A DNA stretch of 40,275 nt from assembly GCA_017396845.1 (NCBI GenBank), contig JAFQKQ010000060.1:1-40275 (forward strand). The letters run 5' to 3'. Source of the DNA: Clostridia bacterium (lineage in GTDB: Bacteria; Bacillota; Clostridia; Christensenellales; Aristaeellaceae). Shown piece by piece: positions 1,776 to 4,938 of the stretch (position 1 is its first letter; every line of letters begins with the position of its first letter). A model generated the notes under the pieces. That model searched no databases. It was not told the origin of the DNA and worked only from the letters and a program-made list of their open reading frames with translations. The translations under genes and the position numbers were made by a program.

Positions 1776-2678
1776 TCAGTCGCTTCCATCCGGCAGTTTC
1801 TGAATGAAATGCTGAAGGGCCGGATTATCGTCGGTTTTGCGCCATGCGATCAATATTTCCTCTGTTTCCCCTTCGCCGGACAGAGGTACGAAAATTACGT
1901 TTTCTGTGCCTACGTCCCACGGATGAGAATATTCGGGGACGATGGAAATTCCCTCTTCTGCCGCCACCATCATCAGGATGCTTTCCATATCGTTTGAGCG
2001 CATAAGGATGTTTGGCTGATAGCCTGCTTGCTGATACAAACGGATGTAAAAAGCATCGCCGAAGGATTCACCTGTTCCCGAGGGCGACATGAACAGGATG
2101 TTTTCCCGGCGTAGATCCCGCCGGGTAAGCTGACGCCGTCTGGCGAGCGGATGATTGGCATACAGTGCAACCCGAAGCGGTACGCGCTCAACAAGCTGCA
2201 TTTGCAGGTTTTCTTCCTTGTGTATGTTTGTGCTGTCCCAGGTGAAGATTACGTCGTAATCCCCTTTTATCAGCCCCGCTGCAAGCATATCGGTGTCGCA
2301 GCGATAGCAGGAGAGAAGCACATTGGGGTAATCCTGATGGAAGCTGCGCAGATATTTCGGCAGGTCGCTGTGCTCATAGCCCTTCGTATAGCCGACCCGC
2401 AGTTCGCCTTCAAGCCCCGTAGATGCCTCTCTTGTGCGGAGCAAAGCGGCGTCTACCCTATAGAGGATTTCCCTTGCTTCTTTTAAAAACACTTTTCCCG
2501 CCGACGTCAGCGTGACCGGACGGCTGCTTCGGTTCAGCAGTTTCGTACCTATACTTTCCTCAAGCGCGTGGATCTGCTGCGTAATCGCTGTCTGAGAAAT
2601 ATAGTGATTCATAGCCGCCTTTGTGAAGCTTCCGGTTTCGGCAACCGATACGTAATACCGCAATTGGTTCAGATTCAT
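1776..2678 (-). CDS. LysR-family transcriptional regulator
   Basis: A 300-residue protein with standard LysR layout. Residues 1-60 form the winged helix-turn-helix (MNLNQLRYYVSVAETGSF, then TKAAMNHYISQTAITQQIHALEE), followed by the linker helix and, from about 90, the periplasmic-binding-protein-like effector domain (ELRVGYTKGYEH). The start ATG at 2678 has a GGAGG site 8 bases upstream. The gene is divergent from the phenylacetate-CoA ligase operon, the classic arrangement for a LysR regulator that controls its neighbour and itself. The effector is not readable from sequence; an aryl acid would fit the neighbour (inference). The intergenic region contains a perfect dyad overlapping this gene's own -10 box. 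Confidence 0.93.
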   Translation of the reverse strand: MNLNQLRYYVSVAETGSFTKAAMNHYISQTAITQQIHALEESIGTKLLNRSSRPVTLTSAGKVFLKEAREILYRVDAALLRTREASTGLEGELRVGYTKGYEHSDLPKYLRSFHQDYPNVLLSCYRCDTDMLAAGLIKGDYDVIFTWDSTNIHKEENLQMQLVERVPLRVALYANHPLARRRQLTRRDLRRENILFMSPSGTGESFGDAFYIRLYQQAGYQPNILMRSNDMESILMMVAAEEGISIVPEYSHPWDVGTENVIFVPLSGEGETEEILIAWRKTDDNPALQHFIQKLPDGSD

Positions 2679-2789: not shown

Positions 2790-3087
2790 ACAGAAGAGAA
2801 TCGATAAATGCGTTTGAGCAGAAAGAGTAGCGGGAGAAAGATTTCAAGAGAAATGCCGGTTGGTGCGAGGCATGAATCAGAGCCCCGTGAAGTTCATTCT
2901 GCGAGCGGTGCGCTGAATTATCAGTAGGCGCAACGGGTGCGACCGTTACATCGCTAAGACTTTTCAGCCTGCGGGAATGATAATCCGTTGGGTGCGAAGC
3001 CTGATGAGGCATTTGCCGCAAGGCAATGTGAAACAGAGTGGTATCACGAGCAATTCGTCCCTGTATTGATGCAATACAGGGATTTTT
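2790..3087 (+). ncRNA. T-box riboswitch, specifier UUC (Phe), with terminator/antiterminator
   Basis: All landmarks of a T-box leader are present. The AGAGTAG element of the Stem I base is at about 2824-2830. The distal Stem I loop is GCCGGTTGGTGCGAGGC (2855-2871). The specifier-loop strand is GTGAAG-TTC-ATTCTG, with TTC at 2893-2895 followed by the usual A. A Stem II region with AGTAGGCGC lies near 2922-2930. The T-box AGAGTGGTATCAC is at 3036-3047, where UGGU would pair with an ACCA tRNA end (discriminator A, as in tRNA-Phe). The terminator CCCTGTATTG/CAATACAGGG (3059-3081) plus five T (3083-3087) follows. CGTCCCT can instead pair with the T-box side to form the antiterminator. Uncharged tRNA-Phe should favour read-through. 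A one-base shifted reading (GUU, Val) is the main alternative for the specifier. Confidence 0.93.
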
Positions 3088-3127
3088 GATTGTCAAAAAC
3101 AAGGCGGTATATAAGGAGGAAAATCTT

Positions 3128-4429
3128 ATGGAACGTTACTATCAGCCGGAAATCGAGTGTGCTCCCGTTGAACAAATCAAGGCGCTGCAGGATGAGCGGC
3201 TGGTCAAACAGGTGAAGCATGTATGGGACAATGTTCCCTATTACCGCAAAAAGATGGAAGAAAAAGGCGTGACGCCGGATGACATCAAAGGCACGAAGGA
3301 TATGTATAAGCTGCCGTTTCTTACCAAGGACGATCTTCGAATCGCATATCCCTATGGCTTGATGGGCAAGCCTCTGAAGGAATGCGTCCGCATTCAGTCT
3401 ACCTCCGGCACCACCGGCAAACGCGTAGTGGCGTTTTACACGCAGCATGACATCGATTTATGGGAGGATTGCTGTGCCCGCGCGATCGTGGCGGCCGGCG
3501 GCACGGATGAGGATGTTTGCCAGGTATCCTATGGTTACGGCCTGTTCACAGGCGGTCCGGGTCTTAACGGCGGAAGCCACAAGGTAGGATGTCTTACCGT
3601 TCCCACTTCCTCCGGAAATACCGAGCGCCAGATTATGTTTATACAGGATTTGAAATCCACTATTCTGTGCTGCACGCCTTCATATGCCGCGTATCTCGGT
3701 GAAACCATGAAGGAAATGGGACTTACGCCGGATCAGATTCCGTTGAAAGCCGGTATCTTCGGCGCAGAGGCCTGGAGCGAAGAAATGCGGCAGGATATAC
3801 AGAACACGCTGGGCATCAAGGCTTACGATATATACGGGCTTACGGAGCTTTCCGGCCCCGGCGTATCCTTCGAGTGCTCTGAGCAGTCCGGCATGCACAT
3901 CAACGAGGATCACTTTATCGCCGAGATCATCGATCCCAACACCGGCGAAGTACTGCCCGAGGGTACCAAGGGTGAATTGGTATTCACCTCTCTCACCAAG
4001 GAAGCCTTCCCGCTTCTGCGCTACCGCACCCGCGATATCTGCGTACTTACGCGCAAAAAGTGTTCCTGCGGACGTACATTCATCAAGATGGCAAAGCCCA
4101 TGGGCAGAAGCGATGATATGCTGATTATCCGCGGCGTAAACGTATTCCCCTCTCAGATTGAGGCGGTGCTGATTGCAGCCGGATATCCGGCCAACTATCA
4201 GATTGTGGTGGATCGAGTTAAAAACAGCGATACGCTGGATGTACAGGTGGAAATGACGCCTGAAATGTTCGCGGACAATGTGGGCGAAGTCAAGAAGCGT
4301 CAGGCAGCGCTGGAGGCAGGCTTGCGCTCCATGCTGGGCATTTCTGCAAAGGTTGTCTTGGTAGCGCCTAAGACCATCGCCAGAAGCGAAGGCAAGGCCG
4401 TGCGCGTAATTGACAAGCGCAAGATTTAG
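3128..4429 (+). CDS. paaK: Phenylacetate-CoA ligase (aryl-CoA ligase, PaaK family)
   Basis: A 433-residue AMP-forming acid-CoA ligase of normal PaaK length. It activates phenylacetate or a related aryl acid to its CoA thioester using ATP. Visible signatures are the adenylate P-loop STSGTTGK (residues 91-98), the central YGLTELSGPG segment, and the C-terminal hinge CSCGRTF, then MGRSDDMLIIRGVNVFPSQIE, typical of PaaK. The start is the ATG at 3128 behind AAGGAGG, not an earlier in-frame codon. It is followed 16 bases later by an ACT-domain gene, a frequent partner of PaaK-like ligases next to indolepyruvate/aryl-pyruvate ferredoxin oxidoreductases; no such oxidoreductase is present here. Control by a Phe T-box suggests a biosynthetic role: phenylacetate to phenylacetyl-CoA to phenylpyruvate to Phe (inference). 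The real substrate could be another aryl acid. Confidence 0.92.
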   Translation: MERYYQPEIECAPVEQIKALQDERLVKQVKHVWDNVPYYRKKMEEKGVTPDDIKGTKDMYKLPFLTKDDLRIAYPYGLMGKPLKECVRIQSTSGTTGKRVVAFYTQHDIDLWEDCCARAIVAAGGTDEDVCQVSYGYGLFTGGPGLNGGSHKVGCLTVPTSSGNTERQIMFIQDLKSTILCCTPSYAAYLGETMKEMGLTPDQIPLKAGIFGAEAWSEEMRQDIQNTLGIKAYDIYGLTELSGPGVSFECSEQSGMHINEDHFIAEIIDPNTGEVLPEGTKGELVFTSLTKEAFPLLRYRTRDICVLTRKKCSCGRTFIKMAKPMGRSDDMLIIRGVNVFPSQIEAVLIAAGYPANYQIVVDRVKNSDTLDVQVEMTPEMFADNVGEVKKRQAALEAGLRSMLGISAKVVLVAPKTIARSEGKAVRVIDKRKI

Positions 4430-4445
4430 TAAGGAGGATACTGTT

Positions 4446-4880
4446 ATGAGTTTGAATCAGATTTCCGTATTTGTGGAAAATATGCCGGGCAGACTGCAGC
4501 TGCTGACAGATGCGCTTGCGAAAAACCGGATCAATATGCGCGCGCTGTCTTTGGCGGAGACCTCCGAATTCGGTATTGTCCGCATTATTGTGGACGACCT
4601 TGAAGCTGCGGTTTCCGTTCTGAAGGAGGAGAGCTTTATCTACACCGTTACCAAGGTACTGGGCGTAGCGATTCCTGATGAGCCCGGCGGACTGAACCGC
4701 GTGCTTAACGTGCTTTCCGGGAGAAGCTTGAATGTTGAGTATATGTATGCCTTCTTAGGCGGCAAGGACGCTGCGCACGCATACATGATCTTCCATGTTC
4801 AGGCGCCGGATGAAGCGGTTTCCGCGCTTTCCGAAGAGGGAATTACCTGCATAGACGATGGGAATCTTGCGAACCTTTGA
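4446..4880 (+). CDS. Tandem ACT-domain protein, partner of the aryl-CoA ligase
   Basis: A 144-residue protein made of two ACT domains (about residues 3-70 and 72-142). ACT domains bind amino acids and act as allosteric sensors. The start at 4446 has AAGGAGG 9 bases upstream, and the gene is co-transcribed with paaK. Small double-ACT proteins of this sort are commonly encoded beside phenylacetate-CoA ligase and indolepyruvate ferredoxin oxidoreductase genes and are taken to be feedback modules. Here it may sense phenylalanine and restrain the ligase, giving a second layer above the T-box (inference). No catalytic domain is present. Confidence 0.88.
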   Translation: MSLNQISVFVENMPGRLQLLTDALAKNRINMRALSLAETSEFGIVRIIVDDLEAAVSVLKEESFIYTVTKVLGVAIPDEPGGLNRVLNVLSGRSLNVEYMYAFLGGKDAAHAYMIFHVQAPDEAVSALSEEGITCIDDGNLANL

Positions 4881-4901: not shown

Positions 4902-4938
4902 AAAAACACCGGGCTGAATAAATTCAATCCGGTGTTTT
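4902..4938. terminator. Bidirectional terminator between convergent genes
   Basis: AAAACACCGG and CCGGTGTTTT form a 10-bp stem with an A-run on one side and a T-run on the other, so it can work on both strands. It separates the ACT gene from the isomerase-like gene. Confidence 0.88.

Follow-up and report, generated by a model that had tools for sequence, protein, structure and literature searches.

A phenylalanine-type T-box leader on a paaK-like ligase operon of a Clostridia bacterium and its predicted role in phenylacetate salvage

Introduction

Genes for IOR- or VOR-type oxidoreductases and for aryl- or acyl-CoA ligases can be read as serving either breakdown or synthesis, and annotation cannot decide between the two. 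This question is raised by a two-gene operon of a Clostridia bacterium of the family Aristaeellaceae (assembly GCA_017396845.1, contig JAFQKQ010000060.1), in which a T-box leader precedes a paaK-like gene for a phenylacetate-CoA ligase and a gene for an ACT-domain pair protein. The window, i.e. the whole stretch of DNA that was analysed, covers positions 1 to 40,275 of this contig, and coordinates refer to it unless another locus is named. An earlier note, made from the sequence alone, had proposed that the leader senses phenylalanine (Phe) and that the ligase supplies Phe synthesis from scavenged phenylacetate rather than phenylacetate degradation. At a probability of roughly 0.8, we conclude that a transcriptional T-box reading uncharged tRNA-Phe controls the paaK-ACT operon for phenylacetate salvage. 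The elements of the leader, the pair of a UUC specifier and a UGGU bulge, the partner enzyme in the genome, the conservation among relatives and the Phe-rich attenuators on paaK in some of them were read directly from the sequences; the direction of flux and the response in cells are inferred.

Results

The Rfam T-box model RF00230 matched the forward strand at positions 2804-3065 with 101.2 bits (gathering score 93, E 2.4e-21) over model positions 1-219, i.e. as a full-length, tRNA-sensing leader of the Phe type. The helix below the specifier loop is formed by the 5' arm GCAGAA (2818-2823) and UUCUGC (2897-2902), and the specifier codon UUC (2893-2895) is followed by A2896. The bulge UGGU, which pairs with the tRNA acceptor end and needs the discriminator base A, is located at 3039-3042. 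An intrinsic terminator with a 12-bp stem and a T-run follows at 3057-3083 as the alternative to the T-box antiterminator; its fold of -16.9 kcal/mol (z -5.7) was equalled by none of 200 shuffled sequences. A score over the Rfam cut-off, a cognate specifier, a UGGN bulge matching the discriminator and a competing terminator downstream were thus found together. These results confirm the T-box at paaK, including the full leader with UUC and the terminator behind it that the earlier note had described, and antitermination by uncharged tRNA is the predicted mode of action.

The amino acid that is sensed was read by eye and by comparison, because an automatic helix-based codon caller performed poorly on leaders of known specificity. 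Twelve leaders of the same genome served as calibrators and were read in the same way, namely those before pheS, cysS, leuS, an aminotransferase-tyrS pair, metG, serS, ileS, valS, alaS, thrS, proS and trpB. Two further leaders stood outside this set, the one before iorAB (L001) and the one before hisS (L012), which reads GAC by eye. In all 12 calibrators, the 3' side of the specifier loop holds the cognate codon; the next base is a purine, and one or two bases separate the codon from the basal helix. The window shows the same arrangement at 2889-2902, GAA-G-UUC-A-[UUCUGC], and the pheS leader of its own genome (L002) reads GAA-G-UUC-G-[CCCC], so that the loop GAA-G-UUC is identical in both. 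All 11 paaK leaders identified, i.e. that of the window and those of ten relatives, contain UUC, followed by A in ten and by C in L136. The automatic caller, poor as it was, returned UUC in ten of these leaders and no helix for L148. The arms of the basal helix covary, with GCAGAA/UUCUGC in the window, GCAAGA/UCUUGU in L116 and CGGAA/UUCCG in L148; these changes were taken from the sequences, since some rows of the leader alignment have the 5' arm displaced by one base. The acceptor-binding bulge reads UGGU in 11/11 paaK leaders, and elsewhere in the window's genome UGGC was found in the serS, trpB and hisS leaders and UGGA in the cysS and thrS leaders. The genome contains a gene for tRNA-Phe(GAA) with a discriminator read as A, which fits UGGU. 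The UUC reading therefore draws on the purine that follows the codon, the UGGU bulge, the pheS leader and the agreement among all 11 leaders of paaK.

Some results weigh against this reading. The Rfam alignment inserts a U and aligns UCA, at a low posterior (5-6 of 9), to the 'uuc' columns of the consensus, so that the covariance search upheld the T-box family and not the specifier placement that the earlier note had given. The automatic caller, which was given little weight, was right in only 4 of the 12 calibrators and found no helix in one. Furthermore, the codon is not always followed by a purine, as C is found there in L136 and in some leucine (Leu)- and isoleucine (Ile)-type leaders of non-synthetase genes. 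A leader sensing serine (Ser) through UCA or UCC, or valine (Val) through GUU, is nevertheless very improbable. The Ser frame would keep Ser codons throughout, with UCA in ten paaK leaders and UCC in L136, but UCA is followed by U, where the cognate codons in the 12 synthetase and trpB leaders are followed by a purine. The discriminator of tRNA-Ser is G, and the Ser frame is unlikely because the serS leader of the same genome carries the bulge UGGC and all 11 paaK leaders carry UGGU. The Val frame turns into AUU (Ile) in L105, L114, L116, L136 and L148. Both frames also conflict with the specifier loop shared with the pheS leader and with the Phe-rich leader peptides on paaK in relatives described below. 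The Ser (UCA) and Val (GUU) specifiers were accordingly rejected on the bulge base, the next base and the comparison.

The gene behind the leader (3128-4429, forward strand) encodes an AMP-forming ligase of 433 amino acids. PF00501 (AMP-binding) and PF14535 (the PaaK-type C-terminal domain) both matched over their cut-offs, and the three best sequence relatives with solved structures, 2y4o, 2y27 and 4r1l, are all named phenylacetate-CoA ligases. The phenylacetate-CoA ligase named in the earlier note was thus recovered, though as a PaaK-like protein, its score to TIGR02155 being 511.4 bits at an equivalog cut-off of 646.3. Phenylacetate is the predicted substrate. A ligase acting mainly on another aryl acid, such as 4-hydroxyphenylacetate or indoleacetate, with the Phe control as a general signal of aromatic shortage, appears rather unlikely. 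Such a role would agree with the score under the equivalog cut-off and with a Clostridioides difficile ligase that is active on phenylacetate, hydroxyphenylacetate and indoleacetate, as a passage in PMC13285125 describes. It fits less well with the names of the solved relatives and with a separate ligase gene that stands with iorAB under a tyrosine (Tyr)-type T-box in the same genome, suggesting a division of labour. A second PaaK-like ligase gene, 56% identical and with an ACT gene of its own, is located at L060 3330-4631 (G000:C57:36829-38130), and a pattern search found no T-box motif upstream of it.

The second gene of the operon (4446-4880, forward strand) encodes 144 amino acids, of which residues 1-143 match ACT_8 (PF19571) with 73.6 bits at a cut-off of 23.5, in agreement with the double-ACT protein of the earlier note. 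The same domain pair occurs in PDB 2f06 (E 1.1e-24), which we take to be a protein of Bacteroides thetaiotaomicron. As a guess, the ACT protein adds feedback by the amino acid and hence a second level to the circuit. Downstream of the operon, a hairpin lies on the forward strand at about 4902-4938 (fold z -5.7).

The partner enzyme of a reductive route is encoded in the genome. A search for an indolepyruvate/phenylpyruvate ferredoxin oxidoreductase, suggested with the first description of the locus, returned IorA with 709 bits, over its cut-off, on contig G000:C43, and IorB adjoining. The two genes appear to share an operon with an MFS transporter and an AMP ligase gene, headed by a T-box, and IorA was found in six of six genomes. 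A scan of named genomes gave at least 593 loci, of which the best 80 were kept; their PaaK proteins are 71-95% identical, and many of the loci come from ruminant or gut samples going by their titles. In 36 of these 80 relatives, iorB ends upstream of paaK at a distance of up to 250 nt, and 44 have iorA or iorB somewhere in the locus. An ACT gene follows paaK at a distance of up to 300 nt in 70/80, with more than 450 nt of downstream sequence available in 76. A relative that carries the operon iorAB-paaK-ACT is the cultured Butyrivibrio proteoclasticus P18 (L095). The reading of paaK as a Phe-salvage gene, as opposed to a breakdown gene, is well supported by these gene neighbourhoods, by the Phe-rich attenuators and by a search for the aerobic oxygenases PaaA and PaaC that found none in six genomes, and the corresponding proposal of the earlier note held up.

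Under the opposite direction of use, the ligase would belong to phenylacetate breakdown or to Phe fermentation (Phe to phenylpyruvate, phenylacetyl-CoA and phenylacetate), and the T-box would be incidental or anticipatory. We consider this improbable. In other clostridia, 2-oxoacid:ferredoxin oxidoreductases do ferment amino acids, according to a passage in PMC13285125; the same source states that AMP-forming ligases typically favour acyl-CoA synthesis. A fermentation of Phe that is switched on by uncharged tRNA-Phe would make little physiological sense, and the Phe-rich leader attenuators on paaK point to biosynthesis as well. PaaA and PaaC, of the aerobic phenylacetate-oxygenase family, were not found in any of six genomes, a result that covers the aerobic route only, as genes for anaerobic phenylacetate oxidation were not searched.

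This limited coverage is one of several points that count against phenylacetate salvage under T-box control. The antiterminator stretch by itself folded no better than shuffled sequences, and the ligase scored under the equivalog cut-off mentioned above. Both prephenate dehydratase and chorismate synthase were found in 6/6 genomes, and prephenate dehydratase is encoded in the genome of the window; because genes for de novo Phe synthesis are present, salvage would be an additional Phe route and not the only one. Moreover, the pattern search detected the T-box in only 7 of the 80 named loci and in 4 of the 30 family loci L029-L058 (window included), counts that are lower bounds.

PaaK relatives at E <= 1e-30 were found in 83 of 120 genomes of the family. 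Ten paaK-upstream relatives picked by the pattern search all gave an Rfam T-box match, eight of them over the gathering score of 93 and the other two with 92.1 and 88.5 bits. None of the seven T-box-bearing named loci contains iorAB. L114 has a second T-box (119 bits) at 1181-1426 (JAFUOY010000041.1), upstream of the one on paaK by about 2 kb. A quick PaaK tree was built from 116 rows, and 39 of its 113 inner branches were unresolved. On this tree, the T-box label (11 rows) requires four changes, with at least three of them forced by well-supported branches, and the Phe-leader label (10 rows) requires six, at least five of them forced; these changes count gains and losses alike, as the two were not told apart. 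A different arrangement was observed in the four family loci L063-L066, each of which carries a paaK-iorA-iorB-paaK-ACT cluster with two PaaK paralogues flanking one IOR.

In some relatives that lack the T-box, a short open reading frame (ORF) led by a Shine-Dalgarno sequence lies upstream of paaK; its Phe codons are clustered, and a terminator stands behind it. Examples of the encoded leader peptides are MKSFEAIFFFSKSAMD (L048) and MSKLSNRTFSFTSGYFFSRFFAMPKRQPCVGSVRR (L100). A scan of 103 non-redundant regions returned 16 leader-like ORFs, four of them inside T-box leaders. Phe was the top residue, with clusters of at least three in ten residues in seven regions, followed by arginine in four and by alanine, asparagine and Ser in three each. 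It accounts for 45 of 389 residues in the leader-like ORFs, compared with 4.0% in long ORFs taken from ten of the loci. The reverse strand, a weak control, gave a single ORF and no Phe cluster. The leaders of L112 and L058 were spotted by eye, outside the leader-ORF scan, and the one of L051 is weak, with two Phe (binomial P 0.12), under the scan threshold of three.

The sequence GCGATGGAT ends the leader ORF in six leaders (L047, L048, L050, L051, L112 and L132). Antiterminator folding was restricted to these six loci, which were picked for their common GCGATGGAT; L049, L058, L100 and L133 were left out. In 6/6, as long as the 3' arm of the terminator is not yet made, its 5' arm is paired with GCGATGGAT; once GCGATGGAT is covered, the terminator forms. 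The terminator is the stabler fold in all six when both are free, and therefore the antiterminator must form first. The predicted fold alternatives follow the logic of ribosome-mediated attenuation. A Phe-rich leader, an overlapping antiterminator and a terminator were thus found together in relatives, not in the window. Two unrelated devices predicted to sense Phe, the T-box and the leader peptide, are hence found on one gene family, paaK.

The 2.79-Mb genome of the window, which is 73% complete, gave 18 T-box matches at E <= 0.001, nine of them over the cut-off. On contig C63, an AUC T-box of the Ile type (73 bits) and a GUC T-box of the Val type (71 bits), neither of which reaches the gathering score, precede two fusion genes (L019 5554-8138, G000:C63:35553-38137; L019 15548 to L020 2166, G000:C63:45547-48166). 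The gene behind the AUC T-box was described as a fusion of helix-turn-helix, cupin and acyl-CoA ligase, and the one behind the GUC T-box as a second such fusion; both contain a cupin domain and an MbcS-like acyl-CoA ligase, and a helix-turn-helix was recognised in one. MbcS is the nearest named ligase family, with 433.5 and 423 bits at a cut-off of 850 that neither reached. It is unusual for a regulator-like part to be fused with a ligase behind a sensor of an amino acid.

A CUC T-box of the Leu type (101 bits) on the same contig precedes a LeuA-like gene and its operon (L020 2270-10858, G000:C63:48270-56858), which further contains a TIM-barrel/AMP ligase fusion, IlvE and a VOR-type cluster, and additionally a small ATPase-like protein and a ferredoxin. 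The LeuA-like protein scored well under the isopropylmalate-synthase cut-off; VorB reached 528.7 bits at a cut-off of 399, and the other VOR subunits fit Pfam domains under the NCBIfam equivalog cut-offs. By its gene content, this is likely a salvage operon for branched-chain acids.

The iorAB operon introduced above (L059 3524-9112, G000:C43:29523-35111) contains the MFS transporter, the AMP ligase and iorAB. Its T-box codon is ambiguous when read alone, as ACA or UAC, and the automatic caller gave ACA. It was taken as Tyr type because the orthologous leaders L154 and L165 (G001, G114) read UAC-A before the helix. This operon is a candidate for the import and salvage of 4-hydroxyphenylacetate. 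Going by specifiers read by eye, five amino acids (Phe, Tyr, Ile, Val and Leu) would thus each have presumed acid-salvage genes behind a matching T-box.

Upstream of the paaK leader, a sigma-70-type promoter-like site (TTGCAA-17-TATAAT) is found on the forward strand at 2734-2762, with 10 of 12 consensus positions matched; it is a consensus match only, and the stretch contains six such sites against 3.0 in shuffled sequences. A gene for a LysR-type regulator (1776-2678, reverse strand) is divergent from the operon, and back-to-back promoter-like sites lie between the two at 2711-2762. The LysR-type regulator might exert an additional control on paaK. At the start of the window, tRNA-Asn is followed by a match to Gut-1 RNA (53.1 bits, gathering score 50), together at 58-238.

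Discussion

In the proposed mechanism, the leader would fold into the terminator (3057-3083) as long as tRNA-Phe is charged. Under Phe shortage, uncharged tRNA-Phe would pair with the leader at two sites, through its anticodon GAA at UUC (2893-2895) and through its acceptor end at UGGU (3039-3042); the antiterminator would form and the ligase would be made. The ligase would convert scavenged phenylacetate to phenylacetyl-CoA, which IorAB, encoded elsewhere in the genome, would reductively carboxylate to phenylpyruvate. An aminotransferase would then turn phenylpyruvate into Phe.

The pathway from phenylacetate to Phe is itself old knowledge. Passages in the literature describe how phenylacetate is converted to Phe in the rumen (PMC7356843) and how the methanogen Methanococcus maripaludis uses aryl acids (PMC4162585). 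The reductive-carboxylation pathway of rumen anaerobes and methanogens is expected to use the same enzymes, an arylacetate-CoA ligase and IOR; the passages on it in these two sources do not mention a Phe-sensing RNA control. In Bacteroides, IOR stands beside an AMP-forming arylacetate-CoA ligase, and the authors suggested aromatic amino acid biosynthesis in 2026, as stated in a passage of PMC13285125. The present system, in contrast, is clostridial, and its Phe-specific RNA control provides independent evidence for the biosynthetic direction.

Similar to other T-box riboswitches (RF00230, e.g. that of pheS), the paaK leader has the common architecture with specifier loop, UGGN bulge and terminator. 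T-boxes are known from synthetase, classical biosynthesis and transporter genes, whereas the gene targeted here encodes an acyl-CoA ligase with a presumed role in acid salvage. The main text of the 2008 T-box survey (PMC2494555) contains none of the terms phenylacetate, indolepyruvate and acyl-CoA, and they are likewise absent from that of the 2013 survey of RNA-controlled regulons (PMC3766115). Within the open-licence literature, to which the search was confined, the paaK ligase is apparently a new target of a known riboswitch class. An exchange of T-box and leader peptide has been described for hisS in Firmicutes in a passage of PMC2965389; there, likewise, unrelated sensors of one amino acid act on one gene family, which here is paaK, with Phe as the amino acid.

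A Phe-specific RNA switch on the ligase tells the direction in which the enzyme is used, and the leader peptides of the relatives tell so independently. For such ligases, the specifier codon may thus serve as an annotation rule. We lean, with some reserve, towards a wider arrangement in which acid-to-amino-acid salvage in gut and rumen Clostridia forms one codon-read regulon, where each ligase senses the amino acid that it feeds and T-boxes and attenuators interchange on paaK. If so, cells would choose salvage amino acid by amino acid, via the charging of the tRNAs. Whether gut and rumen anaerobes use fermentation acids to rebuild branched and aromatic amino acids on demand is an old question, which now becomes directly testable.

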